Below, one piece after another: positions 1,515 to 24,033 of a stretch of DNA of 64,000 bases (positions are counted from its first letter, which is position 1; each line of letters starts with the position of its first letter). The notes below the pieces were generated by a model. It ran no database searches. It saw only the letters and a list, made by a program, of their open reading frames with translations, and was not told the origin of the DNA. The stretch is from Candidatus Wallbacteria bacterium (GTDB taxonomy: Bacteria > Muiribacteriota > UBA6191 > JACPRK01), in NCBI GenBank assembly GCA_016213845.1, contig JACQZN010000056.1:1-64000 (forward strand). Reading direction: 5' to 3'. A program made the position numbers and the translations under genes.

Positions 1515-1579
1515 GCGCCTTTTCCGGTCACGGGTTGACGGGCGGTGGCGAGTATAACACGCCCTCCGCGCGTGCTAAG

Positions 1580-3187: not shown

Positions 3188-3244
3188 CGGCCTTCGACGA
3201 GCTCAGGCCGAACGGTTCCCCAAGGGAGCCAATCGCCGGCGCTC

Positions 3245-4035: not shown

Positions 4036-4173
4036 GTCGCTCGTCCTTTCGTACCCTCCGAATCGCGCTTCGCCGCCCATTGTAACACCGGATTTCACCT
4101 CGGGGCTTCGCAGGCAGTTGCGCAGGACAGGAGGCGACCCGCATACTCCTGGATGGCCCGGGAGGCAACCGTT

Positions 4174-5241
4174 ATGGATATCAAGCAACTGCTGACGGCG
4201 ATGCTGGAGCGGAAGGGGTCGGACCTGCACATCCGGGTCGGAAGCCCCGCGCGCGCCCGCATCCGGGGCGGACTGCAGGCTGTCTCGGACGGCCCCATGA
4301 CCGACCAGGACGTCATCGCCATCCTCAAGACGATCCTGTCGCCAGCGGAGCTGAAGCGGCTCGTGGAGCACGCCGACATCGACGTCCTCTACGTCTGCCC
4401 GGACGTCGGCCGGTTCCGCACCAACGTCTTCCGGACCCTCGGGCAGTACGGCCTGGTGATGCGCCACATCCCCACCAACATCCCCTCCATCGAGAAGCTG
4501 GGGCTGCCGCCCGTGCTCAAGCAGCTGGCCGGCGTGGAGCGCGGCATCGTGGTCGTCACCGGCACCACCGGCAGCGGCAAATCGACGACCCTGGCCGCGA
4601 TGATCGACTACATCAACGAGAACGAGGAGTGCAACATCATCACGGTCGAGGACCCCGTCGAGTTCGTCCACACGAGCAAGAAGAGCCTCATCTCCCACCG
4701 CAGCCTGGGCACGGACGTCCCCTCCTTCAAGCACGCTCTCAAGTACGTCCTGCGCCAGGACCCCGACGTCATCCTCATCGGCGAGATGCGCGACTTCGAG
4801 ACCATCGCCGCAGCCGTCGAGGCCGCCGAAACTGGCCACCTCGTCTTCTCCACCCTCCACACGACCAATTGCAGTCAAACGGTCGAACGAATCCTCAATA
4901 CCTACCCCGGCGAGCTCCACGACCAGGTGCGCCTGCAGCTCTCGCTCAACCTCCAGGGCGTGGTCAGCCAGCGCCTCATCCCGACCAAGGACGGCAAGGG
5001 CCGCGTCGCCGCGCTGGAGATCATGGTGAGTACGCCGTCCGTGAAGAAGCACCTCCTCGAGGGCTCCATCGGAGCGCTCTACAAGGACATCGAGGACGGC
5101 GGCACCGAGGGCATGCAGTCCTTCAACCAGGTGCTGGGCCGGCTCTTCGCAGACGGCAAGATCTCGATCGAGGAAGCGCTCAACGCCGCCAGCCGCCCCG
5201 ACGAGCTGAAGCTTCGCATGAAGATGGAAGGCCTGATCTAG
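4174..5241 (+). CDS. pilT: Second PilT-family twitching motility ATPase
   Basis: MDIKQLLTAMLERKGSDLHIRVGSP; GTTGSGKSTTLAAMIDYINE; DPDVILIGEMRDFETIAAAVEAAETGHLVFSTLHT. Confidence 0.92.
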   Translation: MDIKQLLTAMLERKGSDLHIRVGSPARARIRGGLQAVSDGPMTDQDVIAILKTILSPAELKRLVEHADIDVLYVCPDVGRFRTNVFRTLGQYGLVMRHIPTNIPSIEKLGLPPVLKQLAGVERGIVVVTGTTGSGKSTTLAAMIDYINENEECNIITVEDPVEFVHTSKKSLISHRSLGTDVPSFKHALKYVLRQDPDVILIGEMRDFETIAAAVEAAETGHLVFSTLHTTNCSQTVERILNTYPGELHDQVRLQLSLNLQGVVSQRLIPTKDGKGRVAALEIMVSTPSVKKHLLEGSIGALYKDIEDGGTEGMQSFNQVLGRLFADGKISIEEALNAASRPDELKLRMKMEGLI

Positions 5242-6136: not shown

Positions 6137-7782
6137 GTTCCAACACGGTACCGGCAGCGGCTCGCCTGCTCGCGGCGGCTCTCATCTGGCTCTGCTGCTG
6201 CGCCGGGGAGCTCGCGGCCGCGGGCGCCGTGGCGGTCCACGCGATGGTGGCGACGGACCACGAGCTGGCTAGCGAAGCCGCGTGCGACGTCCTGCGCGAG
6301 GGTGGCACGGCGATGGATGCCGCCGTCACGGCCGCCTATGTCCTGGGCGTGGTCAACCCGCAGTCCTCGGGGCTGGGCGGCGGCGGATTCTTGGTGGCCT
6401 ACGACGCCGCCACCGGCCGCACGCACGCGCTGGAGTATCGCGACCGCGCGCCTTCGGGGACCGCCGAGCTGCTCGCCAGCGGACGCGCCCGTCCGCAGCT
6501 TTCGGGCGGTCTCGCGGCGTCGGTTCCGTGTGAGGTAGTCGGCCTGGAGGCCGCGCGCAAGCGGTTCGGCAGGCTTCCCCGCGCCCGGCTGCTGGCGCCG
6601 GCGATCCGGCTGGCGCGCGAAGGCTTCCCGACAGGCCGGCTGCTGGCCGACATGGCGCGAGCGTACTCGGACCAGCGCTCCCGCGGGGCCGAGCTCGATC
6701 GGCTTCTGATCGGCCCGGACGGACGCTCGATGGTCCGGGGCGAGACCTTCTGGCAGCCGGAGCTGGCCAGCACCCTGGAGCGAATCGCTCGCGAGGGCGC
6801 CGACGCGGTGATGGCCGGGCCCGTGGCGCGGGCCATCGCCCTGGCGGTCAACGCCCACGGTGGCCGGATGTCGCAGTCCGACTTCGACGCGATGGCTGCG
6901 CACTGGGTGGAGCCGCTGGCCGCGCGGTATCGCGACTGCCAGATCTTCGCGATGCCCCCGCCGGCCTCCGGGGCCGCCGTGCTGATGGCCCTGCGGCTCT
7001 TCGAGCCGACCCCGGCCCGCACGCTGGGACCGTACGCGCCGTCGCGCGTGGCGGCGCTGGCGAGTGCGATCCACCACGGGGTCCGGGCCAAGCGGCGCCA
7101 CCTGGGCGACCCGGCCTTCGGCCCGATTCCCCTGGAGCTCTTCCTATCCGGAGCCAATCCGTCCGTTGACTCCGGGACCACTCGAGACGACGAGGAGCCC
7201 GAAGAAGAGGGGCACACGACCAACGTCTGCGTCGTCGACGCAATCGGCAACGCGGTGGCAATGACGATGTCGCTGGGCGCCCCCTTCGGCAGTCACATCC
7301 TGGTGCCGGGCACGGGCATCGTCCTCTCCAACCACATCGCCGACTTCAGCCCGCGGCCCTTCGAGCCCAACGCCTACGGCACCCGCTACGGTCCGGGCAA
7401 CACCATCGCGCCTCTCAAGGCGGCCGTCTCGGGTTCCACGCCGATGCTCGTCTTCCGCGGCGGCCGGCTGGCGCTGGCGATCGGCGGGTCCGGCAGCTCT
7501 CGCATCCCGCCAGCCGTGACGCAGTGCCTGGTCAACGTCGTCGACCACGGAATCCCCCCCGCCCAGGCTGTCGCGCTCCCCCGCTTTCAAGTCACGGGAG
7601 GCTCGGAGAAGATCTCCGTGGAGCCAACGTTTCCCGCCGCCACGCGGGCGGCGCTACGGCTCCTGGGCCACACCGTCCGCGAAGGCGTGAAGCGCTCCTC
7701 CGTAACCGCCATCGCCGTGCGCCCCGGCCTGCTCCTGGGCGCCAGCGACCCCCGCAAGTTCGGCGTCCCCGTCGGCTACTGA
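6124..7782 (+). CDS. ggt: Gamma-glutamyltransferase family protein
   Basis: ATG inside the end of the preceding gene; MVATDHELASEAACDVLREGGTAMDAAVTAAYVLGVVNPQSSGLGGGGF and GHTTNVCVVDAIGNAVAMTMSLGAPFGS (Thr nucleophile region). Confidence 0.92.
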   Translation: MDSLSSNTVPAAARLLAAALIWLCCCAGELAAAGAVAVHAMVATDHELASEAACDVLREGGTAMDAAVTAAYVLGVVNPQSSGLGGGGFLVAYDAATGRTHALEYRDRAPSGTAELLASGRARPQLSGGLAASVPCEVVGLEAARKRFGRLPRARLLAPAIRLAREGFPTGRLLADMARAYSDQRSRGAELDRLLIGPDGRSMVRGETFWQPELASTLERIAREGADAVMAGPVARAIALAVNAHGGRMSQSDFDAMAAHWVEPLAARYRDCQIFAMPPPASGAAVLMALRLFEPTPARTLGPYAPSRVAALASAIHHGVRAKRRHLGDPAFGPIPLELFLSGANPSVDSGTTRDDEEPEEEGHTTNVCVVDAIGNAVAMTMSLGAPFGSHILVPGTGIVLSNHIADFSPRPFEPNAYGTRYGPGNTIAPLKAAVSGSTPMLVFRGGRLALAIGGSGSSRIPPAVTQCLVNVVDHGIPPAQAVALPRFQVTGGSEKISVEPTFPAATRAALRLLGHTVREGVKRSSVTAIAVRPGLLLGASDPRKFGVPVGY

Positions 7783-7790
7783 GTCCCCTC

Positions 7791-7835
7791 CTCACGCCTC
7801 ACTCCTCAAGCCTCAAGCCTCATTCCTCACTACTC
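7791..7835. repeat. Degenerate heptamer tandem repeat (CTCAAGC-type), ends at the downstream GTG start
   Basis: CTCACGC CTCACTC CTCAAGC CTCAAGC CTCATTC CTCACTA CTC, read directly. Confidence 0.85.
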
Positions 7836-8843
7836 GTGAGCCTTCCCCGCGTCATCGACATCCACACCCACCTGGCCGGCCTGGGCGGCGGCGGTACGGG
7901 CTGCTTCGTCTCGACGCGGATGCAGCAATCGCTGGTCTACCACATCCTGAAGTGGTGGACGGGACTGAAACCCGACGACCCCGCCGCCGACGAGGACTTC
8001 GCCGCACGGCTGGCCGGCTTTGTACGAGATTCGGAGAACGTGGACGCAGCGGTCGTCTTCGGCATGGACGGCGTCTACGACAGCCATGGGAGGCTGGTCC
8101 CCGAGAAGAGTCACCTCTACGTGCCGGCGGAGCACCTCTTCCGCGTTTGCCGGCGCGATCCCGAGCGGCTCCTGCCGGGTCCTTCGGTGAACCCCACGCG
8201 GGCCGACGCGCTGGAGGAGCTGGCGCGTGTGGACGAGGCCGGCGCCGTGCTGATCAAGTGGCTGGCGCCGCTGCAGCTCTTCGACCCCTCGGAGCCGAAG
8301 CTGGACCCCTTCTACGAGGAGCTGGCCCGCCGCGGAATTCCGCTGCTGGCCCACACCGGCTGCGAGCACACCTTTCCCGACGTGGCGCACGAGTACGGTC
8401 ACGCCTCGCTCTTCGACCGCGCCCTGCGCATCGGCGTCACGATCGTCTTCGCCCACTGCGGGGTCGCCTGCGGCTTCCACCGCGCGCACCATCAGACCGA
8501 AGAGGTCCTGCGGATGATCCGGCTCCACTCGAACCTCTACACCGACACCTCCGCGCTCGCCAGCTTCCTGAAGTTCTCGAATCTCAAGAAGATCCCGTTC
8601 GCCGACTACCCTGGCCGCTTCGTCCACGGCTCCGACTACCCCATCCCCGCGCTGGCCGCTCCGTTCGCAGCCTCGCTCGGCCTCAAGCGCACGCTGGCTC
8701 TCACCTTCGGCGCCAACCCCATCGAGGCCGACTACCAGATCAAGCTTGCCGCCGGCCAGCCCCGCCACGTCTTCGAAGGCGCCACCGCCGTCCTGGCCCC
8801 GCGCATCGAACGGTGGCTGCAGAGAGTAGTCAGTAGACAGTAG
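7836..8843 (+). CDS. Amidohydrolase family metal-dependent hydrolase
   Basis: GTG start; VSLPRVIDIHTHLAGLGG, LLAHTGCEHTFPD, IVFAHCGVACG, RFVHGSDYPIPAL. The last codons and stop lie in a heptamer repeat. Confidence 0.85.
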   Translation: MSLPRVIDIHTHLAGLGGGGTGCFVSTRMQQSLVYHILKWWTGLKPDDPAADEDFAARLAGFVRDSENVDAAVVFGMDGVYDSHGRLVPEKSHLYVPAEHLFRVCRRDPERLLPGPSVNPTRADALEELARVDEAGAVLIKWLAPLQLFDPSEPKLDPFYEELARRGIPLLAHTGCEHTFPDVAHEYGHASLFDRALRIGVTIVFAHCGVACGFHRAHHQTEEVLRMIRLHSNLYTDTSALASFLKFSNLKKIPFADYPGRFVHGSDYPIPALAAPFAASLGLKRTLALTFGANPIEADYQIKLAAGQPRHVFEGATAVLAPRIERWLQRVVSRQ

Positions 8844-9035
8844 TCAGTAGTCAGTAGGGGTGTCTGGGCGAGGCTACCGAGAATGGTGAAACTCCCCCCC
8901 TCGAGGCCGCCGGATGCACGCCCACAACGTGGCCCCCCCGCAAGACCTCCTTCACCCAGATCGGCTTGGCGCCTTCATGCTGGTCAGGCAATCGCCCTAC
9001 TGACTACTGTCTACTGACTACTGTCTACTGACTAC
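8826..9035. repeat. Inverted pair of heptamer arrays (GTAGTCA/GTAGACA) flanking a 139-bp core
   Basis: Left arm 8826-8857 (GTAGTCA GTAGACA GTAGTCA GTAGTCA GTAG); right arm 8997-9035 whose reverse complement is GTAGTCA GTAGACA GTAGTCA GTAGACA GTAGTCA GTAG. Confidence 0.95.
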
Positions 9036-9041
9036 TTCCCC

Positions 9042-10556
9042 ATGCCCCTCTCCCTCACCACTCTCGAACACCAGGTCGGCCAGCTCTTCCACTACGGCTA
9101 TCTCGGCATCGAGCCCGACGATGCCATCCGCCGGCTGCTCTCCGAACGCCACATCGGCGGCGTGATCCTCTTCGGCCGCAACTTCCGCGACGCCACACAT
9201 CTCACCCGGCTGACGGCAGAGCTCCAGTCGCTGGCGGCCAACCCGCTCTTCATCAGCGCAGACCAGGAGGGCGGCTCCGTCCTGCGCATCCGGCGCGGCG
9301 GCACGCTCTTCCCCTCCAACATGGCCGCCGGCCGGCTCGATCTCGACAGCATCCGGGAGCTCGGCCGCATGTGTGGCCTCGAAATGCGCGCCTGCGGGCT
9401 CAACATGGACTTTGCCCCGGTCCTCGACATCAATGACCCCGAGAACCCGGGCATCGGCATCCGCAGCTTCGGCGAGGACGCCGCCTCCGTGACCCGCGCG
9501 GGCCTGGCCTGGATCGAGGGCTTCCAGTCGACCGGCGCCATCGCCACGGCCAAGCACTTCCCCGGAAAGGGCGCGGCCCGCAAGGACGCCCATCTGGCGC
9601 TGCCGGTCATCGACAAGGGGCTCGAAGGGCTCCACGACTGGGAGTTCCGCCCGTTCCGCGAAGCCTTCGCCGCCGGTTGCCTGGGCGCGATGACCAGCCA
9701 CTGCGTCTACCCCGCCTTCGACGAGCTTCCCGCCACCCTCTCGCCTCTGGTGCAGACCCGGCTGCTCCGGGAGCAGATGGGCTTCCAGGGCGTGCTCGTC
9801 ACGGACGACCTGGCCATGGGCGCCATTGCCCAGGGTCATGACGCGCCGACCGCCGCGCTCGAGTCCTTCCGCGCCGGCGCCGACCAGATCCTGATCTGCC
9901 GCGTCCCGGAGCGCCAGGAGGCCGCGATCGACCGGGTCCTGGCCGCCCTGCGCTCCGGCGACGTCCCGATGTCCAGGCTAATGGAGAGCCTCGACCGCAT
10001 CGAGCGCTGCAAGAGCTGGATCGCCTCACGCCCCAGGCCCGCGGATCCGATCGAGGTTCTTCACGCCCGCCACGCCCCCGTCGTGCAGCAGATGTGCGAC
10101 CGCGCCGCCACCGTGCTGCGCGATCGCCACAAGCTCTTGCCGCTCGCCTGGCGCGGCCCGACGGTCGGCGTGCTCTTCCCGAACATGGACATCCTCACCC
10201 CCGTCGAGGAGCGCACCGACGGCGACACCCGGTTCCTCGACCACTTGCTCGAGCGGATGGGCGGCGCCCGCCTGATGCGCTACGACCCCAAGGACCCCGA
10301 TCTCCAGAGCGTAGAACCCACGGCCTTCCTCGAGTCCGTCGATCGGGTCGTCCTCTTTTCCGTCAACGCGCACCTCCACCCCGGCCAGTCCGCAATGCTG
10401 CGCACGCTCGCGGACCGCTTCGGGGAGCGGATGGTGCTGGTCGCGCTCCGCAACGCCTACGACGAGCGCCTCGCCCCCGAGGTCGGCACCGTCATCGCCA
10501 CTTACGGCTTCCTGGACAACGCCCTCGCCGCCAGCGCCCGCAAGCTCCTGGGCTAG
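9042..10556 (+). CDS. nagZ: Glycoside hydrolase family 3, beta-N-acetylhexosaminidase-like
   Basis: GGVILFGRNF, FISADQEGGSVLRI, MDFAPVLDIN, IRSFGEDA, TAKHFPGKG...D.H, TDDLAMGAI. Confidence 0.88.
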   Translation: MPLSLTTLEHQVGQLFHYGYLGIEPDDAIRRLLSERHIGGVILFGRNFRDATHLTRLTAELQSLAANPLFISADQEGGSVLRIRRGGTLFPSNMAAGRLDLDSIRELGRMCGLEMRACGLNMDFAPVLDINDPENPGIGIRSFGEDAASVTRAGLAWIEGFQSTGAIATAKHFPGKGAARKDAHLALPVIDKGLEGLHDWEFRPFREAFAAGCLGAMTSHCVYPAFDELPATLSPLVQTRLLREQMGFQGVLVTDDLAMGAIAQGHDAPTAALESFRAGADQILICRVPERQEAAIDRVLAALRSGDVPMSRLMESLDRIERCKSWIASRPRPADPIEVLHARHAPVVQQMCDRAATVLRDRHKLLPLAWRGPTVGVLFPNMDILTPVEERTDGDTRFLDHLLERMGGARLMRYDPKDPDLQSVEPTAFLESVDRVVLFSVNAHLHPGQSAMLRTLADRFGERMVLVALRNAYDERLAPEVGTVIATYGFLDNALAASARKLLG

Positions 10557-10563
10557 GACCTCG

Positions 10564-11646
10564 TCAGGCCGGCATCACGATCGCGCCCTCGGCCGGGTCG
10601 CCCAGCAAGCGCGTGCGGCCGTGGGCGTGCTCGCGCGCCGTGTAGGCCGCCAGCACGGCGCCCAGCTCCGCCTGCGATAGAAGGTCCCGCGCCGGCGCTG
10701 GCAGCCCGGGCAGCAACCCGATCAGCGACCGCTGCAGCTCGAGCCGCCCGCGAATCGCCGCGCGCCCCCTGGGGCGCTCCAGAAGCTCCCGCCGCGCGGC
10801 CGCAGCGCACACCTCGACCGCGCGAAGACGTCTCAGACGCAAAAGGTCCGCCAGCTCCAGCGAGCGCAAGATCCACTCGCGCCTCAGCCGACGCCCTCGC
10901 CTGTCCACCGTACGCATCACTCCCAGCTCCATCAGCCCGCGGTCCGCCGCGCGCCCCCAAGGCGGCACCTCCTCGGAGCAGGCACAGCGAGGCTCCGCCT
11001 CCAGACAGCAGCGCCCCATACCGAACGGCAGGGACTGCGGCGCGTCCACACCGACCACGCTCACTCCCTCGGGCAGCCAGCCCGAAACCGCCAGGTCGCT
11101 CGCCAGCGTCGCCCAGGCGACCAGACGCCCGCCGCCGTCCAGCAGCGCCGCTGCCGGCCCCGACGGCGCCGCCAGGGACGGCTCGATCCCTGCCGCCAGG
11201 CTCGAGAGAGCGTCGTCCAGCAACCCCAGCGCCGACGCGTGACCGTCCCACTCCAGGCGCGCCAGCACCTGCTGGCGATCGAACCAGTGCGCGTGCACGT
11301 GCTCATCCGAGAGGTCAACGGGCGAGTCCTCCGGCACGCACTGGGCGAACACGGTCTCCTCGACCTCTCTACCTCGATACGAGAATCCGTACGACAGCCC
11401 CAGCGGATACGCCTCGCCCGACATCCGCCTTCGCCCCCCCACAGTGGCGCGACTGCCCCGCGATCCGATCCCGGTCTCCTCCGCCAGTTCGCGACGCGCC
11501 GCCGCTTCGAGCCGCTCCCCCTCTTTCACCCCGCCCGTCACGGGCTGCCACCCGTTCCCGCGAGCTCGCGGCCGCCTGAGCAACAGGTACTCGACACCCC
11601 CGCCGATCACCAGCCGATACGCCCATACCTGTACTTTCCGCTTCAT
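10564..11646 (-). CDS. NUDIX hydrolase domain fused to a DUF429-like (predicted nuclease) domain
   Basis: NUDIX box GGVKEGERLEAAARRELAEETGI; C-terminal half VVGVDAPQSLPFGMGRCCLE...AVEVCAAAARRELL...GAVLAAYTAREHAHGRTRLLGDPAEGAIVMPA resembles DUF429. Confidence 0.75.
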   Translation of the reverse strand: MKRKVQVWAYRLVIGGGVEYLLLRRPRARGNGWQPVTGGVKEGERLEAAARRELAEETGIGSRGSRATVGGRRRMSGEAYPLGLSYGFSYRGREVEETVFAQCVPEDSPVDLSDEHVHAHWFDRQQVLARLEWDGHASALGLLDDALSSLAAGIEPSLAAPSGPAAALLDGGGRLVAWATLASDLAVSGWLPEGVSVVGVDAPQSLPFGMGRCCLEAEPRCACSEEVPPWGRAADRGLMELGVMRTVDRRGRRLRREWILRSLELADLLRLRRLRAVEVCAAAARRELLERPRGRAAIRGRLELQRSLIGLLPGLPAPARDLLSQAELGAVLAAYTAREHAHGRTRLLGDPAEGAIVMPA

Positions 11647-11783: not shown

Positions 11784-12155
11784 TCACACCCCGTGCGCCG
11801 TTTCGACGACCTCGAACTTGAGCTCGCCGGCGGCCTTCGTGAGGATGTCGATGCGGATTCGATGATTTCCGGCCGTCAGTTTGTGGCCCTTCAGCAGAAT
11901 CTTGATCGGCGTCCCCTTCAGCAGCTTGAACGGCTTCTCAGCCGTGACGGCGCTGGCGGCCATCTGCTGCTCCCCGTTGTCGACGTGGGTCTTTTCGACG
12001 GGAAACGCCTCGCCGTCGATGACGATCGGCTTGAGCCCGACCATCAGGTCGAAGGCGATCTTGTTCTCGAGGGCCATCTCCGTGCCCCCCTTCACCTTCT
12101 TGAGGCTATCGTGCTGGAAAAGCGACCGGAGGATGAACTCGGGGATGAAGGCCAT
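11784..12155 (-). CDS. Small protein resembling C-glycoside deglycosidase beta subunit/DUF6379-like proteins
   Basis: FILRSLFQHDSLKKVKGGTEMALENKIAFDLMVGLKPIVIDGEAF...LKGHKLTAGNHRIRIDILTKAAGELKFEV; family call from pattern memory only. Confidence 0.5.
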   Translation of the reverse strand: MAFIPEFILRSLFQHDSLKKVKGGTEMALENKIAFDLMVGLKPIVIDGEAFPVEKTHVDNGEQQMAASAVTAEKPFKLLKGTPIKILLKGHKLTAGNHRIRIDILTKAAGELKFEVVETAHGV

Positions 12156-12592: not shown

Positions 12593-13834
<1,242 letters not shown>

Positions 13835-13847
13835 AGAAGGAAATCGA

Positions 13848-15686
13848 ATGGCCGAAAGACCCCGCCTCAGCACCGACGCCGATTCGCTCCTGGCCCGCAT
13901 GGGCAAGGAGCGCTTCGTCCTCGGCTTCGTCTCCGACAACCTGGCCGGCATGCCGCTCACGGCGCGCAACGCCGCCCGCGAGCTCGGCACCGCCCTCGAC
14001 CGGGTCGGCCTCTCGTGCACCGACGTCTCCACGGCGCTCGCCGAGAGCTTCGCCCGCGTGCGCCAGTTCCAGGAGCAGTCCGAGAAGCTGGGCGAATCCT
14101 CCGAGAGCACCTTCAAGCGTCTCGAGGAGGTCTCCGAAGCGCTCAAGCGCTCCCTGGCCGACGCCGCCGACCTCATCCGAGCCGTCAGCCACTTCCAGAC
14201 CGCGGGCGCCGGCATGCAGCCCCGCACGGCCGTCCTCGAAGAGGCCTCCCACGGCGTCCGCGAAGAGGCCGCCCGTCTCGTGGAGCTGGCGGAGCAAATC
14301 AATCTTTTGGCTCTCAACAGCGTCATCGAGGCCGACCACACGGGCCGTGAGGGCCGCCCCTTCGCCGTCTTGGCCCAGGAGATCCGCACCATCGCCTCCC
14401 GGACGGCCGAGGAGGCCAGCGAGGTCCAGCAGATCGTCGAGAAGATCGAGCACGACGTCCTCGAGGCCACCGGCCGCGTCGACAGCAACGAGCAGAGCTA
14501 CCGCGAAGGCGCGGTCAAGGCCGGCGAGCTCTCCCCTGACCTGGCAGCCCTGGAGCGAAGTCTGGCCCAGCTGCGCGACGGACAGGAGGACTTCCGCCGC
14601 GAGTACCGCTCGCTGGCCGACCACCTCGCCGACATCCGCACGCGCTACGAGCAGATGACCGCTGTCACAGAGCGCGTCGTCCTCACCTCCGAGAGCGTCG
14701 GCGCCGCGATGCGCGAGGAGCAGGACTCCCTCACGCGCCTGGCCGCCAGCGTCGACGACGTCCTGGGCGCCGTCGAGGGCCAGCGCGGAGCGCGCTCCGC
14801 CGAGCAAACCGTCGAGGCGGTGCGCGCCAACCTCTCCACAACGGGTGCCCTGCTCACGCACTGCTTCGCCAGCGAGCGCGAGCTCACCAGCGGCCTCGAC
14901 AACGCCGAGCGGCTGGCCAGCGACCAGACCTCCTCGGCCAGCCTGGCCGAACGCAAGTCCGAGCGCCTCGAGGTTCTGGCCAGCTCGCTGGCCGACCGCG
15001 CCGGCTTCATCCGGGCCCGCGGCCAGGAGCTGCTGGCCAACTGGGAGACCCGCGTGCTCGCGCAGGTCCTGGCGCTCATCGGCCACATCGACCTCGCGGC
15101 CACCAAGACCCATGAGGCCGTCGAGGCGATGGGCGCCCTCGAAGCCCGCATCCGCCAGATCGACCTGGTCGCAGCCTCCATCGCGCGCGCCACGCTCAAG
15201 ATCGACATGCTCGCCCTCACAGGCAGCATCGAGGCCAGCAAGGCCGGCGTCCAGGGCGGCGGCTTCGGAGCCGTCGCCTCGCAGGTCCGCCAGCTCGCAG
15301 GCGAATCGGGCCAGGTCGCCGACCGCATCCAGCTCCGCGGCTACCACCTCAATTCCGCGCTCTCCGTGATCCGCCGCAGCTTCCTCGAAGCCGAGGGCGT
15401 CGCCCGCACCGAACACGCCCGCTCCGGCCGCGCCCGCAAGAACCTCCATACCCTCGAGGAGTCCCTGCGCGGCCTCGGCGCCTCGCTCGAAGCCGTCTTC
15501 CAGTCCACCACCGGCGCCGCGACCCAGGCCGGCCTCGTCCTCAAGGACGCCGCCATCCTCGTCAAGGCCACCGAATCGACCACAGCCGGCATCCAGGCCG
15601 CCGCCCGCGCCCTCGCCTCGACCTCAGCCGGCCTCGCCTCGCTCTCCCGAGGCGTCGAGAAGGTCGCCTCGCGCCTGGAGGCCTGA
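13848..15686 (+). CDS. Soluble methyl-accepting chemotaxis-like protein with two signalling tips
   Basis: Tip 1 AEQINLLALNSVIEADHTGREGRPFAVLAQEIRTIASRTAEEASEV; tip 2 LKIDMLALTGSIEASKAGVQGGGFGAVASQVRQLAGESGQVADRI. No TM segment visible. Confidence 0.85.
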   Translation: MAERPRLSTDADSLLARMGKERFVLGFVSDNLAGMPLTARNAARELGTALDRVGLSCTDVSTALAESFARVRQFQEQSEKLGESSESTFKRLEEVSEALKRSLADAADLIRAVSHFQTAGAGMQPRTAVLEEASHGVREEAARLVELAEQINLLALNSVIEADHTGREGRPFAVLAQEIRTIASRTAEEASEVQQIVEKIEHDVLEATGRVDSNEQSYREGAVKAGELSPDLAALERSLAQLRDGQEDFRREYRSLADHLADIRTRYEQMTAVTERVVLTSESVGAAMREEQDSLTRLAASVDDVLGAVEGQRGARSAEQTVEAVRANLSTTGALLTHCFASERELTSGLDNAERLASDQTSSASLAERKSERLEVLASSLADRAGFIRARGQELLANWETRVLAQVLALIGHIDLAATKTHEAVEAMGALEARIRQIDLVAASIARATLKIDMLALTGSIEASKAGVQGGGFGAVASQVRQLAGESGQVADRIQLRGYHLNSALSVIRRSFLEAEGVARTEHARSGRARKNLHTLEESLRGLGASLEAVFQSTTGAATQAGLVLKDAAILVKATESTTAGIQAAARALASTSAGLASLSRGVEKVASRLEA

Positions 15687-17152
15687 TGACTGCGCCCTCA
15701 GGCAAGCTCCGCGTCGAGTTCCGCGTCGGCCGCGGCGCGCCGGTTCCGTCGCTGAAGGGCATGGAGGTCGTCGCCTCGCTAATCCCCATGGGCGCCGTCC
15801 TGGGCTGCGAACCCGATATCCTCGAAAACTCTCCCGACTCCACTGAGTCCTTTTATGCCGTCCTGCTGATGCCCGCCTCCGAGGAGAGCGGCCCCCGGCT
15901 CGAAGAGCGCCTGCGCGCCGACCCGGAGCTCTCCGAGGTCCGCGTCCTGCCGGCCTCCTCCGAGGACGAGCCCGCACGCCCCACCCGCGAGCTGCAGGTC
16001 CAGGTGGAGCGCCTGCGCGCCCTCGAGCGCCAGGCTTCCGAAATGGTGGCCGCCTTCAGCCGCATGACCGGCATCCTCACGCGACTCTCCCCCGCCGGCG
16101 ACTCCGCCCTCCAAGCCGGCCGCAAACCGCCGCCCCGCCGCGGCCTCGAGGAGATCCGCGCCGCCCACCAGTCCGCGACCGCGCTGGCCCAGCAGATGCG
16201 CGACACGGCCCGCAGCCTCCTGCTCGTCCCCGCCCGCGTGGTCCTCGCCCGGCTCAATCGCCCCGTGCGAGACCTGGCCCGCGAGCTCGGCAAGCAGATC
16301 GAGCTCACCGTCCTGGGCGACGACACGGAGCTCGAACAGAGCATCCTGGACGAGCTCCGCGAGCCCCTGGTCCATCTCGTCCGGAACTCCGTCGGCCACG
16401 GCATCGAGGCCCCCGAGCAGCGCATCCGCGCGGGCAAGCCGCCCACAGGCTCGCTCGTCGTCAGCGCCTACGTCGCCGGCGACAACTTCGTCATCGAGGT
16501 CAAGGACGACGGCCACGGCCTCGACCTCGACCGCATCGGACGCCGCGCCATCCAGATGGGACTGACCACCGCCGACGAGCTGCGCGAATCCGCCGACGAG
16601 ACCCTCTTCAAGTACATCTACCTGCCCGGCTTCTCCACCGCCGACAGCGTCAGCACCTTGAGCGGCCGCGGCATCGGCCTGGACGTCGTGAAGGCCCGCG
16701 TGGTCAAGCTCCACGGCACCATCGAGACCACGAGCCAGAGCGGCCTGGGCACAACGTTCACGCTGCGCGTGCCACTGTCCACCTCGCTCATCCGCGCCCT
16801 CGTCGTCGAGACCGCGGAGCAGAAAATCGCGCTGCCCTCGAGTGCCATCCGCTCGGTCGGTTATGCAGCAGACTGGACCGCCTCACGCGCGCGCAGCGGC
16901 AGGCTCTTCAGCCTGGCGGCCGCCCTGGGATGGGGCGAGCGTCCCTCGCCGCTGGTCGTCGAAGTGGGCGTCGCCGAGCGGCGCATCGCTCTGGGCGTGG
17001 AGGCCTGCCGCGACCACGAAGAGCTGGCCATCCGGCCGCTGGGCCGCTACCTCGGCCACGTCCCGAGCATCACCGGCGCGGCCATCCTCCGCAACGGCCA
17101 GCCCGTCCTGGTCCTCGACACCGCAGAGCTGGCGGACCAGCTGGGGATCTGA
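15686..17152 (+). CDS. CheA-like histidine kinase lacking an N-terminal Hpt domain
   Basis: RPVRDLARELGKQIELTVLGDDTELEQSILDELREPLVHLVRNSVGHGIEAPEQR; DDGHGLD; GRGIGLDVVK; C-terminal CheW-like region. Confidence 0.85.
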   Translation: MTAPSGKLRVEFRVGRGAPVPSLKGMEVVASLIPMGAVLGCEPDILENSPDSTESFYAVLLMPASEESGPRLEERLRADPELSEVRVLPASSEDEPARPTRELQVQVERLRALERQASEMVAAFSRMTGILTRLSPAGDSALQAGRKPPPRRGLEEIRAAHQSATALAQQMRDTARSLLLVPARVVLARLNRPVRDLARELGKQIELTVLGDDTELEQSILDELREPLVHLVRNSVGHGIEAPEQRIRAGKPPTGSLVVSAYVAGDNFVIEVKDDGHGLDLDRIGRRAIQMGLTTADELRESADETLFKYIYLPGFSTADSVSTLSGRGIGLDVVKARVVKLHGTIETTSQSGLGTTFTLRVPLSTSLIRALVVETAEQKIALPSSAIRSVGYAADWTASRARSGRLFSLAAALGWGERPSPLVVEVGVAERRIALGVEACRDHEELAIRPLGRYLGHVPSITGAAILRNGQPVLVLDTAELADQLGI

Positions 17153-18303
17153 TGGCCCACGAACAGCCGATCTCCCGCGGCTCGCTGCGACCCATTCTCG
17201 AACGGCTCGAGGAGCTGATCATCGACGCCGGCCTCTCCGGACTCGAAGCCGCCGGCGAGTCGATGGCCTTGCAACTCGACGACCTTTCGGCACGCCTCGA
17301 GAAGCTGGCCGAGGGCACCGGCCCGGCGGGCGCCGCCACCGGCACGGCCACCTTGATCCGCCGCATCCTGAGCCGCGAAGTCCCCCGCCCCCACGGCTTC
17401 TCCGAGCTGCTCCTCGAAGTCCACTCCATGCTGAGCGAGTTCTGCCAGGGCGAGGACGTCGGAGCCCGCCTGCCCGCTCTGACGCTCGCACTCACACCGC
17501 AGCCCGAGGGCCCCCCGCAGCCGCCCGCACCACCGCCGGACGTCGGACGCATGTTCGTCGCCGAAGCGACCGGCTGTCTCGACCAGGTGGAACAAGCTCT
17601 TCTGGAGATGGAGCGGGGGCCGCTGGATGCCGAGCAGCTGCGCGAGCTGGCGCGCGACCTGCACAACATCAAGGGCAGCGCGGGCATGGCCGGCCACGAG
17701 GAGCTGGTCTCGCTGTCCCACGCCATGGAAAACCAGGTGCTGGGCCTGCTTGCCGACGCCGGCGCCGACCGCGCCCGGATCGTCGACTCGCTATTGAAGG
17801 GGCTGGACGAGGCCCGCGCCATCGTCGACCGGCTCCGGCGTGTGGAAGTCGCTCGAGAAACCGAAGCCGGGGCGCGCGCTGCCGAGGCCAGCTATCTCCT
17901 GTTCCATGCCGGCGGCCGCAGACTGGCCGTGAGCCTGGGGGAGCTCGGCCGGGTCGAGCGAGTGCCGCCGAGCGCGGCTGTTCCTTTCACGCCTCCCTTC
18001 GTGATAGGCTTGGTCAATCTGGGCGGAGAGCTCCTTCCGCTGGTCGATCTGGCCCTGAGACTGGGGTGGTCACCTGGCGAGGAGGAGCCGCGCTGGGTCC
18101 TGGTGGTCGGAAAGGGTGAGGAGCGGATCGCTTTGAGAGTCGATCGGGTGGCCCAGGTCGTGACGTTCGAGGCCGCGTGCCTCGTCGCCGCACCATCGGC
18201 GCAAACGACCGGCGAGCTGCCCTGGACGATGGCGCTGGACGAGGGCGAACCCGTGCCCGTCCTGGATGCCGGCCGAGTGGCCGCCTGGCTCGGCTCGCGC
18301 TGA
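17152..18303 (+). CDS. Hpt domain fused to a CheW-like domain
   Basis: RDLHNIKGSAGMAGHEELVSLSHAMENQVL (Hpt) then ASYLLFHAGGRRLAVSLGELGRVERVPPS...VIGLVNLGGELLPLVDLALRLG (CheW). ATG overlaps the upstream TGA. Confidence 0.85.
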   Translation: MAHEQPISRGSLRPILERLEELIIDAGLSGLEAAGESMALQLDDLSARLEKLAEGTGPAGAATGTATLIRRILSREVPRPHGFSELLLEVHSMLSEFCQGEDVGARLPALTLALTPQPEGPPQPPAPPPDVGRMFVAEATGCLDQVEQALLEMERGPLDAEQLRELARDLHNIKGSAGMAGHEELVSLSHAMENQVLGLLADAGADRARIVDSLLKGLDEARAIVDRLRRVEVARETEAGARAAEASYLLFHAGGRRLAVSLGELGRVERVPPSAAVPFTPPFVIGLVNLGGELLPLVDLALRLGWSPGEEEPRWVLVVGKGEERIALRVDRVAQVVTFEAACLVAAPSAQTTGELPWTMALDEGEPVPVLDAGRVAAWLGSR

Positions 18304-18307
18304 ATCG

Positions 18308-18718
18308 ATGACGCCCGAGATGGCCTCGCGCGAACATCCCTCGGTGCTGATCGTGGACGATTCGCCCGCCATCCGCGCGGGGCTGCGCCGCATCCTGGAG
18401 CCGGCAGGCTTCGCCATCGCCGCCGAGGCCGCCGACGGCTCCGAGGGCGTCGAAAGCTACGCCCGGCTCGCGCCCGACCTCGTGACGATGGACGTGGAGA
18501 TGCGCCCGATGGACGGCCTCACCGCCCTGCGCGCCATCCGCGCCGCCGATCCGGCGGCCCGCGTCATCGTCATCACGTCGGCCTATCGCAAGGCCGAGGT
18601 GCTCGAGGCGCTCGCGCTCGGAGCGGGCTATGTACTGAGGAAGCCGCCGAAAGCCGAAAAGCTGATCGAGGCCGCGCGACGCCTGATGGCTCGCAAGCCG
18701 GGCCTCCAAACCGCCTGA
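18308..18718 (+). CDS. CheY-like single-domain response regulator
   Basis: SVLIVDDSPAIRAGLRRIL...DLVTMDVEMRPMDGLTAL...VIVITS...LRKPPKAEKL. Confidence 0.9.
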   Translation: MTPEMASREHPSVLIVDDSPAIRAGLRRILEPAGFAIAAEAADGSEGVESYARLAPDLVTMDVEMRPMDGLTALRAIRAADPAARVIVITSAYRKAEVLEALALGAGYVLRKPPKAEKLIEAARRLMARKPGLQTA

Positions 18719-18724
18719 GGCAAC

Positions 18725-19840
18725 ATGTCCGAAGCCAAGCACGCCGTGGTCATCGTGGACGACTCGCCCGTCGTCCGAACCCTGCTAAAACACATCATCG
18801 ACGGCAGCGCCGACTTCTTCGTCGCCGCGCAAGCCGGTGACGGCCTCGAGGGTGTCGAGCTCATCAAGAAGCTCCGGCCTGCCGTCGTCACGATGGACGT
18901 CCAGATGCCTCGCATGGACGGCCCCAGCGCCATCCAGGAGATCATGCGCGAGTGCCCGACGCCCATCATCGTCTGCAGCGTGCTGGCCTTCGAGGGAGCG
19001 CCGGTCGTGCTCAAGTCGCTGCAGTGCGGCGCCTTCGACTTCGTCACCAAGCCCAAGAGCGTGCTCAGCGATCCGAACCAGTTCGCCCAGCTGCTGATCG
19101 GCAAGCTGCGCGCCGCGCTGTCCGCCAACCGCGAATCGCTGGCCGGGGCCGAGGACTCGAGCGCTGCCGCCCCGGCGCCGTCGCCCGCGCGCTCGGAGCC
19201 CGCCAGCAAAGAGCCCTCGGCGCTCGCGCCGATCGCTGCCGAGCTGGTCGCGTTCGGGGCCAGCACGGGCGGACCCAAGACGATACTCTCGGTACTGCCC
19301 CATTTCCCGGCGGGCTTTCCGGCAGCGATCGTGGTGGCGCTTCAGGACGTTCCGACACCCATCCTCAAACTGATCGCCGATCAGCTCGCCAAGGTCTGCA
19401 AGCTGCCGGTCGACATGGCCACTCCGGACCGCCCGATCGAGCGCGGACGGATCCTGCTCGTCTCCGGGGAGCACCACGCCATGGTCATCCGCGGCGCCGA
19501 GCGCGATCCGATCCTGAAGCTGATCGAGAAGAACCAGTCGACCGAGCAGTCTCCCGCCTTGAACGGCCTCTTCTCCAGCGTGGCCGTCGCCTGCCCCGGA
19601 AAGGCTGTCGGCGTGCTGCTCACGGGTACCGGCAAAGACGGTGCCCTCGGTATCAAGAAGATCCGGCAATCCGGCGGCCGTACCATTGCTGAAGACCGGC
19701 GGACCGCGGTAGTCTTCGACAAGCCCGCCGCAGCCATCGCCCTCGACGTCGTCGACCTGGTGCTGCCATCGTCGCGAATCGTGGAGGGAATCCTCAAACT
19801 GACGGCTTACGAACCGGCCGACGCCGCCGCGGCGCGTTAG
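18725..19840 (+). CDS. CheB-like protein (REC plus methylesterase fold) with altered catalytic region
   Basis: IVDDSPVVRTLLKHII...TMDVQMPRMDG; FGASTGGPKTILSVLPHFP; VVALQDVPTP where QHMP is expected; VLLTGTGKDGALGIK. Confidence 0.88.
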   Translation: MSEAKHAVVIVDDSPVVRTLLKHIIDGSADFFVAAQAGDGLEGVELIKKLRPAVVTMDVQMPRMDGPSAIQEIMRECPTPIIVCSVLAFEGAPVVLKSLQCGAFDFVTKPKSVLSDPNQFAQLLIGKLRAALSANRESLAGAEDSSAAAPAPSPARSEPASKEPSALAPIAAELVAFGASTGGPKTILSVLPHFPAGFPAAIVVALQDVPTPILKLIADQLAKVCKLPVDMATPDRPIERGRILLVSGEHHAMVIRGAERDPILKLIEKNQSTEQSPALNGLFSSVAVACPGKAVGVLLTGTGKDGALGIKKIRQSGGRTIAEDRRTAVVFDKPAAAIALDVVDLVLPSSRIVEGILKLTAYEPADAAAAR

Positions 19841-19861
19841 ACGACCGGCGACTTTACACCT

Positions 19862-20449
19862 ATGGACTCATCCCAGAAGCGAATCCTGATCGTCGATGAC
19901 GAGGCCGACATCCGCGCGATGCTCAAGCGGGCCATCGAGCGCACTCTCAAGATCCCCGCCGACACGGCTTCCAGCGGGCTGGAAGCCCTGGAGCAGATCC
20001 GGGAGACCCGCTACGACCTGATGGTCACCGACCTGTCGATGCCCGAGATGGACGGCCTGGCTCTCTTCCGAGCCGTCAAGGAGCGCCATCCCGAGATTCA
20101 GGTCATCGTCCTGACGGCCACGGCCTCGGTGGAGACCTCGATGGCCGCCGTCAAGAGCCACGTCTACTCCTACCTCACCAAGCCAATCTCGATGGACCGC
20201 TTCATCAAGGAAGTCGAAGCGGCCCTCGCAGCCCTCGATGCCAGCCGGCCGACCCCGGCCACCCGAGATCTCGCCTCCGTGCTGGCCGCAGTCGACAAGG
20301 CCGCCGCCGACATCGGCGCGAAGATCGACCGCCTGGCCGGCCAGGCCCCCGTCGAAGCCCTGGTCGAGCTCAAGGGCCTCTCGGTCCACCTCAAGGAGCA
20401 GCTCGGCTACCTGCGCATCCTCGTCGGCGACGGCCGCCCCCCCGCCTAG
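19862..20449 (+). CDS. Response regulator receiver protein with C-terminal helical extension
   Basis: RILIVDDEADIRAML...DLMVTDLSMPEMDGLALF...VIVLTATASVE...YLTKPISMDRF. Confidence 0.88.
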   Translation: MDSSQKRILIVDDEADIRAMLKRAIERTLKIPADTASSGLEALEQIRETRYDLMVTDLSMPEMDGLALFRAVKERHPEIQVIVLTATASVETSMAAVKSHVYSYLTKPISMDRFIKEVEAALAALDASRPTPATRDLASVLAAVDKAAADIGAKIDRLAGQAPVEALVELKGLSVHLKEQLGYLRILVGDGRPPA

Positions 20450-20512: not shown

Positions 20513-21880
20513 TCACACCGCGTCGGTCGGCATCATGCGCCGGATCCACGCGCGGTAGTCGCCGTCGAATCCGACCTTCTGCTGCAACTCCCGGATGCGA
20601 CCGTGGATGCGCTCCCGAAGCGGCTCGGTCATCTGCGGCAGCTGGGCGATGGCCTCGGCGACGCTGCCGGCCTGGCCGTGGACTTTCGACTCGGTCTTGC
20701 CGAAGAGCGTCTCGGGCAGGACCGCGGCCCCCTCCGGGGCGACCTTCAAGTAGTCGCGCGCCACCAACCCGGCAATCGTGGCGCTGTGCTTGCGCGAGAC
20801 GGCGATGTTGCCCTTGCCGGTCACCACATTGCCGACGCCGAACACGTTGTCGTAGCCTGAGAGCTTGGCCGCGCCATCCTCCGCGAAGATGTAGAACTCG
20901 CCCTTCTGCGGGACGCCAGGGATCGGCTCCGGAATGGAGCCGATGGAGCTGATGATCATGCTGGCGCGCTTCTCGACCTCGGTTCCGGGCAGCTTCAGGA
21001 CCTTGCCGTCCTTGATCTCGGTGCGGATGAAGCGCAGGCCCACCAGCTTGCCGTTCTCGAGCAGGAAGCCGGTCGGCAGGTGAAGCGGCTCGAAGCGGAA
21101 CAGGAACTTCGTCATCGCGTTCTGGAGCAGCCGCTCGCGGACCTCCTCGGTCTTCTTGCGCTCCTCGGGGGTCGCATTTTCCTTGTAGGCCGCAACCGGC
21201 ATGTCGAGCGCGCGCCGCCGGTAGTAGAGCGTGCACCCCTTTACTCCCAGATCCTCGAGCGTCAGACCGTGCTCCTTGAGAACCGCCGCGATGCCCTTGT
21301 GCTCCAAATGAAGCATGGAGTGGTTGTGTCCGCGCGCGCGCAGCGCCCGGCCCACCAGCTCCAGCATCACGATCTTCACGACGTCATAGGAGGCGAGCCC
21401 ACCGCCCAGGACCATACAGTCGTCCTCGATGGTGTAGCGCGGACCGTCGTAGCCCTTCTCCTCGTAATGGTTGAACCAGTAGACCAGCGGGTTCTGGTAC
21501 ACCAGCCCCTTGCCCACGTAGTCGTCGAGACCGTCGATCCCCACGGGACGATCCTTCCAGGCACCATTGGCCAGCAGCACGGCGCTGAACCCCCAGTGCT
21601 TCGCCAGATCCTCGAAGGACACGTCTCGACCCAGCTTCACCCCGGGCACGAAGTGTACGCCCGGACGATCCAGCTTGGCGTTGATGCGCTCGTACTCTTG
21701 CGCTCGCTGCTTGTCGTGCCAGCGCGGCAGCCCATCCTCGATCTTTCCGTACGGCTTCATGTTCTGCTCGAGGACGACGACCTCGATGCCGCGGTCCGCC
21801 AGCGTCGCGGCCGCTTCGGCTCCCGAGACGGCTCCACCCACGACGGCCACGATGTACTTGGACTGGCTCTCGACGACCAT
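20513..21880 (-). CDS. FAD/NAD(P)-dependent oxidoreductase
   Basis: KYIVAVVGGAVSGAEAAATLADRGIEVVVLEQN; CMVLGGGLASYDVVKIV; NVFGVGNVVTGKGNIAVSRKHS. Start may be 21922. Confidence 0.8.
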   Translation of the reverse strand: MVVESQSKYIVAVVGGAVSGAEAAATLADRGIEVVVLEQNMKPYGKIEDGLPRWHDKQRAQEYERINAKLDRPGVHFVPGVKLGRDVSFEDLAKHWGFSAVLLANGAWKDRPVGIDGLDDYVGKGLVYQNPLVYWFNHYEEKGYDGPRYTIEDDCMVLGGGLASYDVVKIVMLELVGRALRARGHNHSMLHLEHKGIAAVLKEHGLTLEDLGVKGCTLYYRRRALDMPVAAYKENATPEERKKTEEVRERLLQNAMTKFLFRFEPLHLPTGFLLENGKLVGLRFIRTEIKDGKVLKLPGTEVEKRASMIISSIGSIPEPIPGVPQKGEFYIFAEDGAAKLSGYDNVFGVGNVVTGKGNIAVSRKHSATIAGLVARDYLKVAPEGAAVLPETLFGKTESKVHGQAGSVAEAIAQLPQMTEPLRERIHGRIRELQQKVGFDGDYRAWIRRMMPTDAV

Positions 21881-22111
21881 GACTCTCTCGCTCCTTGCCA
21901 TGCCTTGGGTGACGGCAATCACGCCGCGCCCGGCAGATCACAGGACAGACTGTCCGGGAGGACGCCCGCTCGACGAAACACGCGGGCCATCCGAAGCGCC
22001 GGACCGCCCTTCACGGTAGTACGGCGCCCGTTCGAAGTAAACGGCGGCTCACACGAGGCCGCGACGCGGACTCGCGCAAGATCCGCGCCACACACGCCCC
22101 GGCGGGCCTCG

Positions 22112-22849
22112 CTACCGGCCGCGGCCGAACGTGTAGACCATGCCGAGCCCGACCTGGAGGTCGTCCAGGTTGAACCGGCTGTCGGGGCCGTAGATGTACT
22201 TGGCGAAGACGTCGAAATCGACGCGCCGCCCCGGAAACTCGACTCCCCCGAAGACCGTGAAGACGTTCTGGTTGAACGTTCCCGCGCCGCGCCGATTCAC
22301 CTCGGCATTGCCGATCCCGATCCCGTAGTAGGGATGATGCTTCAGCCGGAAGGCCGGCGAGCCCGCGGCGAACGCCTCGATGGCCAGCTCGACCATCTGC
22401 ACGTCTGCTGTGCTGCCGTTCCAGAAGCCGTACGAGGCCTCGTAGCCCAGCTGGAAGTACTCCCCGTGCCGATCCGGCAGCTTGTACCGAAGCCCGATGC
22501 TGCTGGCCAGCGCTCCGCCCGAAGGCTCGTTTGCTGTGGGGTTGTACCCCGCCAGCCGCCAGAAGGCTGCCCATTCGCTCTCGAAGGGCAGTGAGGTCCT
22601 CAGGCCGAACTCCTCGATCAGCATGCCGCCCTTCTGGGGCCGCGGCTGATCCTGCACGGGCGGCAGCGGAATCTCCTCCGTGGTAACCACCTCGGAGACC
22701 TCCTGCGAGGCCGCATCTATGGCTTCCCGGGCCAGCAGGTCCTCATCGAAATCCGCGACCGGCGGCTCGGCGGGCGCAGACGCCTTCGCCAGCACCCAGC
22801 CGGGCGCAGCTAAAGCCAGCGCGATACAGAGAAACCCGGTGCGAATGAG
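22112..22849 (-). CDS. Predicted secreted or outer-membrane beta-barrel-type protein
   Basis: Signal-like MLIRTGFLCIALALAAPGWVLA; C-terminus with alternating aromatic strands ending VGLGMVYTFGRGR. Confidence 0.6.
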   Translation of the reverse strand, partial: LIRTGFLCIALALAAPGWVLAKASAPAEPPVADFDEDLLAREAIDAASQEVSEVVTTEEIPLPPVQDQPRPQKGGMLIEEFGLRTSLPFESEWAAFWRLAGYNPTANEPSGGALASSIGLRYKLPDRHGEYFQLGYEASYGFWNGSTADVQMVELAIEAFAAGSPAFRLKHHPYYGIGIGNAEVNRRGAGTFNQNVFTVFGGVEFPGRRVDFDVFAKYIYGPDSRFNLDDLQVGLGMVYTFGRGR

Positions 22850-22935
22850 CATGCGATCGATCCACCTATCGGCCCCCGCTGCCATTCAGCGGAGTCGTCA
22901 GGCGTTCGAATCACACCCAAGGCTCGAAACGGAGA

Positions 22936-23973
22936 CTAGTACCCGTCCTCGGCCAGCCGCGTCGCCAGCGCCTCGTAGAGCCCCTTGGCGTCGAAGGTGG
23001 TCAACCAGCCCATCTCGTCCAGATGATCGGCGTCGAGGTCCCCGAGGTACTGCCCCCGGCGCGCGGACGACATCCCGACCATGCCGTCGGTTCGCCCGGC
23101 CAGCTCCGGCCTGAGCCACTCCCTGGGCAAGTCGCGCAACGCTTCCTGGAACCCTTTCTCCGAAAGCGCGTGCACCAGCCGGCCGTCTCCGGCCGCCAGC
23201 TTCCGCAACGCCTTGCCGTCGCCCGCGTCGAGCGGTTGGCGCAAGAGCGTCCTCTCCAGAGCCCGGTTGATGGCGTGCGTCGCCATCAGAGGGACGAAGT
23301 AATTGCGGAACTTCTGGGCCCCGGCCAGGCTCCTGTAGACCACGCGCGGGTCGTCGGGCACGGCAGGGTTGAACGTCAGCTCCATGTGGCGCACGGACAG
23401 ATCATGGAAACCCGCGAGGTCGATGCCGAGCGCCTTCGCCAGCTTCTCGATGCTCGGAAACCGCTGCTGGGCGTAGTAGACGAACCAGTCGGCCAGGAGC
23501 GTGCCGTGGTTCGGCGTGCTCACCATCGTGACCGAGGCAATTCGGTCGGCCATCCCGAGCCGGGCGATCATGTAGCGCGTGTCGAGTCCGCCCATGCTGT
23601 GGGCCAGGATGTTCACCTTGCCGTCGGGGTACCGGCTCCGGATCTGCTCGGCCAGCGCGGTCGCGCGCGCCTCGATGCTGCCGGTCGGCGGAACGTCGGA
23701 GGTGAACACGTCGAACCCGCGCTCCCTCAGGTGCTGCTCGATTCCGTGGAAGTATCGGACCTCGATCGGCCCCCACCGGAGCTTGTCGAACCCACAGATG
23801 CCGTGCGCCAGCACGATCGGATACCGGGTCGGAGTCGCCTTGTCGACGAAAGGCCGGAACAACCGCCGGAACAAGCCCGTCCGCAGGTTGAACGTCCCGA
23901 ACGGCTCCTCGGCATGCAGCGCCGAAGCCATCAGGACAAGAGCCAGAACCGTTGTAGAAATCGCGCGAGTCAT
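22936..23973 (-). CDS. Secreted triacylglycerol lipase-like alpha/beta hydrolase
   Basis: Signal-like MTRAISTTVLALVLMASALHA; YPIVLAHGICGFD, VNILAHSMGGLDTRYM, VSTPNHGTLLADW. Confidence 0.85.
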   Translation of the reverse strand: MTRAISTTVLALVLMASALHAEEPFGTFNLRTGLFRRLFRPFVDKATPTRYPIVLAHGICGFDKLRWGPIEVRYFHGIEQHLRERGFDVFTSDVPPTGSIEARATALAEQIRSRYPDGKVNILAHSMGGLDTRYMIARLGMADRIASVTMVSTPNHGTLLADWFVYYAQQRFPSIEKLAKALGIDLAGFHDLSVRHMELTFNPAVPDDPRVVYRSLAGAQKFRNYFVPLMATHAINRALERTLLRQPLDAGDGKALRKLAAGDGRLVHALSEKGFQEALRDLPREWLRPELAGRTDGMVGMSSARRGQYLGDLDADHLDEMGWLTTFDAKGLYEALATRLAEDGY

Positions 23974-24033
23974 ACGAGCGAAGCGCGAAAGGATAGCAGA
24001 AGAATCTCCTGCTGACAAGCCGATAGTCAGGAG

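Follow-up and report, generated by a model that had tools for sequence, protein, structure and literature searches.

How might a chemosensory system signal when its CheA-type kinase carries no Hpt domain and no CheR is encoded beside it? The question is raised by a compact gene cluster at positions 13848-20449 of a 64,000-nucleotide stretch of Candidatus Wallbacteria DNA (the window), which is part of contig JACQZN010000056.1 (C22) of a 6.2 Mb metagenome-assembled genome (MAG) judged 84% complete. The cluster consists of six co-directional genes on the plus strand, abutting or a few bases apart (largest gap, 21 bases), which encode in order a soluble receptor of the methyl-accepting chemotaxis protein (MCP) type, an Hpt-less CheA core kinase, a protein that joins an Hpt to a CheW-type domain (Hpt-CheW), a CheY, a CheB-like protein and a further receiver protein. 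The ATG of the kinase overlaps the stop codon of the MCP at 15686, its own stop overlaps the start of Hpt-CheW at 17152, and each domain call in the cluster is backed by Pfam. Gene positions, Pfam domains and conservation in two related genomes agree with the order, strand and coordinates given in the original prediction, which had been made from the sequence alone. We consider it fairly probable that the six genes encode a self-contained cytoplasmic split-CheA module, in which the Hpt would be phosphorylated in trans and methylation-based adaptation would have been lost.

The cluster recurs in two genus-mates, G001 and G002, both of them Candidatus Wallbacteria MAGs from groundwater. In G001 all six genes are present with their order kept, at 97-99% identity to the window. 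In G002 five genes and the 3' end of the receptor gene stand in order up to the end of a contig, the remainder of the receptor lies on a second contig, and the proteins are 66-84% identical to those of the window. Measured against the closest relative, G001, the ratio of nonsynonymous to synonymous substitution (dN/dS) is 0.03-0.15 for all six genes, indicative of purifying selection, and the receptor is the most conserved of the six proteins. Because of this recurrence and these ratios, the cluster is real rather than a product of chance, and its genes look functional. What the sequences themselves show is the domain composition of the proteins, their motifs, their conservation and the purifying selection on them. 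Neither a full-length Hpt-CheW orthologue nor an orthologue of the kinase N-terminus was found beyond the genus in the phylum genomes searched. A profile scan of the genome collection for Hpt-CheW, limited in sensitivity by its two short patterns, returned G001 and G002 only, and a plasmid search with the same protein gave matches that were CheW-only or Hpt-only.

The kinase matches Pfam HATPase_c (1e-15) and CheW (1e-7) and has the core of a CheA, namely a P4 ATPase with a P5/CheW domain; the ATP-binding boxes HLVRN, DDGxG, GRGIGLDVVK and GxGTTF are present. It has no N-terminal P1 with a phospho-acceptor histidine in the same chain. A hidden Hpt is rejected on the lack of any Hpt match in Pfam and of any histidine in residues 1-160; the first, His161, falls in the P3-like region and is not part of an HxxKG motif. 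Evidence of a P2 in the N-terminal 100 residues is weak at most: taken in isolation, the piece has a sub-threshold Pfam P2 match (E 0.0038) that has no counterpart in G002, and hhalign to local P2 domains yielded 0.1%. The prediction of an Hpt-less CheA-like kinase thus withstood the search for a hidden Hpt. In the CheW/P5 tree the P5 is of CheA type, with its first half shortened. The trees of the kinase and of CheB had low support at the nodes that bear on placement in the tandem-MCP class.

The neighboring Hpt-CheW protein matches Pfam Hpt at 8e-14 and CheW at 4e-21. Its Hpt has the motif HNIKGSAGMAG, aligns with the P1 domains of T. maritima and E. coli CheA, and in the predicted model superposes on 1tqg with a TM-score of 0.84. 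The CheW domain was poorly modeled; it falls on the CheW side of the CheW/P5 split (ultrafast bootstrap, UFBoot, 98), and its matches in the PDB are CheW proteins only. The possibility that Hpt-CheW is a decayed CheA is disfavored by its side of the tree and by the absence of a kinase remnant. CheW-like domains are accordingly fused to the kinase and to the Hpt protein alike, as originally stated, with a Pfam CheW match in both. An unassigned five-helix region precedes the Hpt. By fold, the model as a whole best matches the repeat proteins BRIC1/BRIC2 (6ff6, 6fes), and BRIC1 by sequence holds two CheA P1-like units; the modeling hints that the N-terminal region may be a second, degenerate Hpt-like bundle. 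With an Hpt missing from the kinase, the P4 boxes in place and the only recognized Hpt of the operon borne by the adjacent protein, it is natural to read the arrangement as one of phosphorylation in trans. This much of the proposed noncanonical relay stands; the split architecture itself was known already.

The receptor matches MCPsignal (6e-31) in two stretches, and no sensor domain was recognized in it. It is predicted to be all-helical (AlphaFold; predicted local distance difference test score, pLDDT, 52), and the model was used for helix content only. The label of soluble MCP given to it earlier is correct as far as it goes, the second signaling hairpin having been overlooked. The two hairpin tips are 301 residues apart; the spacing is 300 in the tandem MCPs of the phylum relatives G027 and G038 and of Methylosinus, and receptors of Eleftheria and Azospirillum likewise have two MCPsignal stretches. 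In the tree of MCP tips the second tip lies in a clade of other second-hairpin tips (UFBoot 95), and the tandem was therefore more likely inherited than freshly duplicated; independent duplication is disfavored both by this clade and by the tip spacing. As judged from sequence, the tandem MCP is probably a built-in receptor dimer in one chain. Tandem MCPs, each with a protein of four CheW domains encoded after it, were also seen in phylum relatives, at L100 (G027:C8, at 792-4698 and 7154-11012) and L102 (7773-11637); in G027 the pair is duplicated, the copies lying ~6 kb apart.

The local lack of CheR and of a standalone CheW, noted from the window, holds for the whole of contig C22, where no CheR match was found and the only CheW domains are the two in the kinase and Hpt-CheW. 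Beyond this contig the genome encodes two CheRs (on C8 and C123), several CheWs, seven other CheB-type domains and four further CheA-type kinases, all with an Hpt; the absence of CheR is a property of the locus and not of the genome. No strict consensus methylation motif was found in the receptors of the window and of G002. By comparison, three tandem MCPs from within the phylum (L100/L102) have 4-7 such motifs, and five of the six other MCPs of the host genome have one or more. The CheB-like protein does have the receiver and CheB_methylest domains that its name implied. Its Ser-His-Asp triad is broken, however: the catalytic histidine is an aspartate in all three genus members, whereas the CheBs of tandem-MCP clusters retain the QH motif. 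This loss, like that of the receptor methylation motifs, had escaped the first reading. The protein lies barely above one NCBIfam CheB cut-off, and automatic annotation would therefore name it a methylesterase. The phospho-acceptor aspartate and the conserved lysine, judged by eye, are kept in all three receivers of the cluster. Since the lack of a local CheR, the lack of consensus methylation motifs and a CheB without its catalytic histidine all point the same way, the module appears to have lost adaptation by methylation, and the CheB-like protein is probably a receiver, sink or binding protein. Two further CheB-type domains of the host genome, L097 (G000:C49) and L099 (G000:C30), lack the catalytic histidine, with Pro and Gln in its place; that of L099 is also without the Ser motif (GGAGG).

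From these sequences we infer phosphorylation in trans, the direction of transfer, the geometry of the array and the loss of adaptation in vivo as follows. The soluble single-chain tandem MCP would form the base of the complex, the Hpt-less kinase would join it through its P5 domain, and a CheW-type protein that carries the Hpt would take the place of the coupling protein. With both proteins held within the receptor-based complex, the kinase would phosphorylate His171 of Hpt-CheW in trans, and the phosphoryl group would then pass to CheY, to the receiver of CheB and/or to the third receiver. There would be no methylation-based adaptation, and CheB would serve as a receiver, sink or binding protein. 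We suggest, tentatively, a more specific form of this arrangement: a core complex in which CheW itself bears the phospho-acceptor, such that each CheW position beside the kinase would be a substrate, on a single-chain receptor dimer that has neither a sensor domain nor a methylation memory.

Several observations weigh against the split-CheA module as we describe it, and they have to be set beside its rivals. The N-box aspartate (LDHG) is a glycine in the kinase. The salt bridge between Glu38 and Arg62 of E. coli CheW is reported to align the receptor and kinase sites (PMC3828127); Hpt-CheW has Arg and Gly at these positions, and both residues are also changed in G002. With this pair lost from the CheW part and the P5 of the kinase shortened, the module may not assemble into arrays. 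Because the receptor model is of low confidence (pLDDT as above), the single-chain dimer is putative as a structure. As to adaptation, one ordinary MCP of the host genome is likewise without a strict methylation motif, some MCPs may use non-consensus sites, and the two CheRs elsewhere in the genome could act on the receptor in trans. The module might then still adapt by methylation, with CheR, and perhaps CheB, supplied by the other chemosensory clusters, whose two CheRs and seven CheB-type domains would be at hand. We regard this as unlikely, given that neither the window receptor nor that of G002 has a strict motif where related tandem MCPs have several, and that the cognate CheB has lost its catalytic histidine throughout the genus. 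The same altered residues could also be taken as signs of a decaying operon, in which gene fission and the lost motifs (the CheB histidine, the methylation motifs, the CheW salt-bridge pair, the shortened P5) amount to loss of function; the dN/dS of each gene, a receptor that is the most conserved protein of the six, and the retention of the same altered residues in G002 make this highly improbable.

Two further alternatives concern the partners of the module. Hpt domains are portable, and the four other CheA-type kinases of the genome might be what mainly phosphorylates Hpt-CheW, which would then be a hub with the Hpt-less kinase as a minor or structural partner. This seems distinctly unlikely to us: the kinase and Hpt-CheW genes overlap stop to start and are co-conserved in all three genomes, and the kinase has its P4 boxes and is under purifying selection. 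The other alternative, quite unlikely in our estimate, is a control system of the type IV pilus (Tfp) class acting on nearby PilT proteins, a connection that the original prediction had offered. PilT-family proteins are indeed confirmed at 477-1514 (476 bits; opposite strand, ~12 kb from the cluster) and at 3955-5241 (8.6 kb away), and there is a cyanobacterial pilus system with a split CheA (PMC7656254). The ~8.6-12 kb in between, however, is occupied by unrelated genes (amidohydrolase, glycosidase-like, NUDIX and MoeA-type), and these two are among 13 PilT-family ATPases above the curated cut-off in the host MAG; the chance of finding one this near a random point is roughly 3-5%. For these reasons the PilT link is a weak lead. 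Nor does the operon look like a Tfp-class system: it has no membrane PilJ-type receptor, no multi-Hpt CheA with a C-terminal receiver and no linked pilus genes, and its receptor has its relatives among the Che2-type tandem MCPs. Elsewhere in the window, at 52960-53481, a 556-aa open reading frame contains a weak match (70 bits) to a PilT/T2SSE-like ATPase. Control of flagella is not established either, since an FHIPEP (FlhA-type) protein is encoded on contig C80 of the host genome with no FliM match in the incomplete MAG, a pattern that could be due to this incompleteness or to a non-flagellar export system.

Features of the chemosensory cluster, in window coordinates
Feature	Position	Strand	Basis
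Soluble tandem (single-chain) MCP, 612 aa, two signaling hairpins	13848..15686	+	Pfam MCPsignal, homologous tandem MCPs, tip spacing
MCP hairpin 1, tip motif NLLALNSVIEADHTGREGRPFAVLA, residues 141-274	14268..14669	+	Pfam; conserved tip Glu161 at 14328-14330
MCP hairpin 2, tip motif MLALTGSIEASKAGVQGGGFGAVA, 48 bits	15102..15341	+	Tip Glu462 at 15231-15233; groups with second hairpins of tandem MCPs
CheA-type kinase without Hpt, 488 aa: N-terminal domain of uncertain type, P3-like helices, P4 ATPase, shortened P5	15686..17152	+	Pfam, alignments, CheW/P5 tree
Hpt-CheW, 383 aa: N-terminal helical domain ~5-117, Hpt ~131-229 (HNIKGSAG), CheW-type domain ~248-378	17152..18303	+	Pfam, alignment, model, tree
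Predicted phospho-acceptor His171 of Hpt	17662..17664	+	Sequence; alignment to CheA P1 structures 1tqg, 2ld6
CheY-like single receiver, ~134 aa, exact start uncertain	~18311..18718	+	Pfam Response_reg 7e-27; orthologues 98% and 82% identical
CheB-like, receiver + esterase domain; Ser180, Asp305 kept	18725..19840	+	Pfam Response_reg, CheB_methylest 1e-41
GAC codon (Asp208) at position of catalytic His190 of Salmonella CheB (QHMP -> QDVP)	19346..19348	+	Alignment to 1a2o, 6ymz
Receiver protein, 195 aa, uncharacterised C-terminal extension	19862..20449	+	Pfam Response_reg 2e-28

A MoeA-type gene at 12593-13834 lies on the same strand and ends 13 bases 5' of the receptor start, in an order that is the same in G001, and could be co-transcribed with the receptor. 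Downstream, 20513-24018 encodes oxidoreductase, unknown and lipase-like proteins, in the same order as in G002. At 11784-12155 there is a 123-aa protein with a match to the Pfam HMG-CoA reductase N-terminal model (8e-15), which is odd for so short a protein.

If the split-CheA reading is right, the module separates the kinase from its phospho-acceptor and signaling from methylation adaptation, which are normally bundled in chemotaxis. It would then offer a natural case in which to ask whether chemosensory complexes can function in the absence of adaptation, what purpose single-chain MCPs serve (a matter called unexplored, PMC4692393), and whether, as one theory has it, split kinases permit switch-like responses; that theory also requires a bifunctional partner (PMC3591291).

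A split CheA alone is rare but known, and so not new, given the precedents of CheA3/CheA4 in Rhodobacter (Cereibacter) sphaeroides (PMC10782961, PMC6829392, PMC3591291) and Hik36/Hik43 in Synechocystis (PMC7656254). Phosphorylation in trans likewise has its precedent in the R. sphaeroides split CheA (PMC3591291, PMC10782961), where, as in the window, one protein has P3-P4-P5 without an Hpt, its partner combines an Hpt with a CheW-fold domain, the receptors are cytoplasmic, and both proteins, each with a CheW-fold domain, are encoded in one operon (PMC10782961, PMC3591291). CheA3, however, has been described as a full CheA that has decayed, with ~794 aa separating its Hpt from its P5, and it has phosphatase activity. 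The partner in the window shows neither the P5-type C-terminus nor the decayed kinase region of a duplicated CheA; it is a short Hpt with a CheW-type domain, and it stands beside a tandem MCP, with no local CheR and no intact CheB triad. In Synechocystis, CheA is similarly divided between two proteins, one with the Hpt and the other with the kinase (PilL-N/PilL-C; PMC7656254), but their genes are not linked, a receiver is present in Hik43, and the system is part of a type IV pilus cluster.

The receptor is a homolog of those of the Che2-type clusters of Rhodospirillum centenum (compared by description), Methylosinus, Eleftheria, Azospirillum plasmids and G027/G038: it is soluble and tandem, with two signaling hairpins ~300 residues apart and a second hairpin of the same type. 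Che2 of R. centenum includes a tripartite CheW and has an effect on lateral flagella (PMC2890560), and its single-chain MCP has been noted (PMC4692393). The clusters of the tandem-MCP relatives contain a 3- or 4-CheW protein, a CheB and a CheA, and those on plasmids also a HEAT-repeat protein, a CheR and a CheY. Unlike the window cluster, which has none of these, the Che2-type clusters examined retain a CheA with its own Hpt, a CheR, a QH-motif CheB and the multi-CheW protein. A bipartite CheA with a separate Hpt gene in one operon is also covered by the survey of Berry et al. 2023 (PMC10782961), the text of which treats separate Hpt genes in general; we found no Hpt-CheW fusion beside a tandem MCP described in it. 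Nor did we find, in the open-access literature, a description of an Hpt on a CheW-type domain together with a tandem MCP and the concerted loss of methylation parts, an absence that is not proof. Each part of the module has a precedent, and it is their combination that seems to be new.

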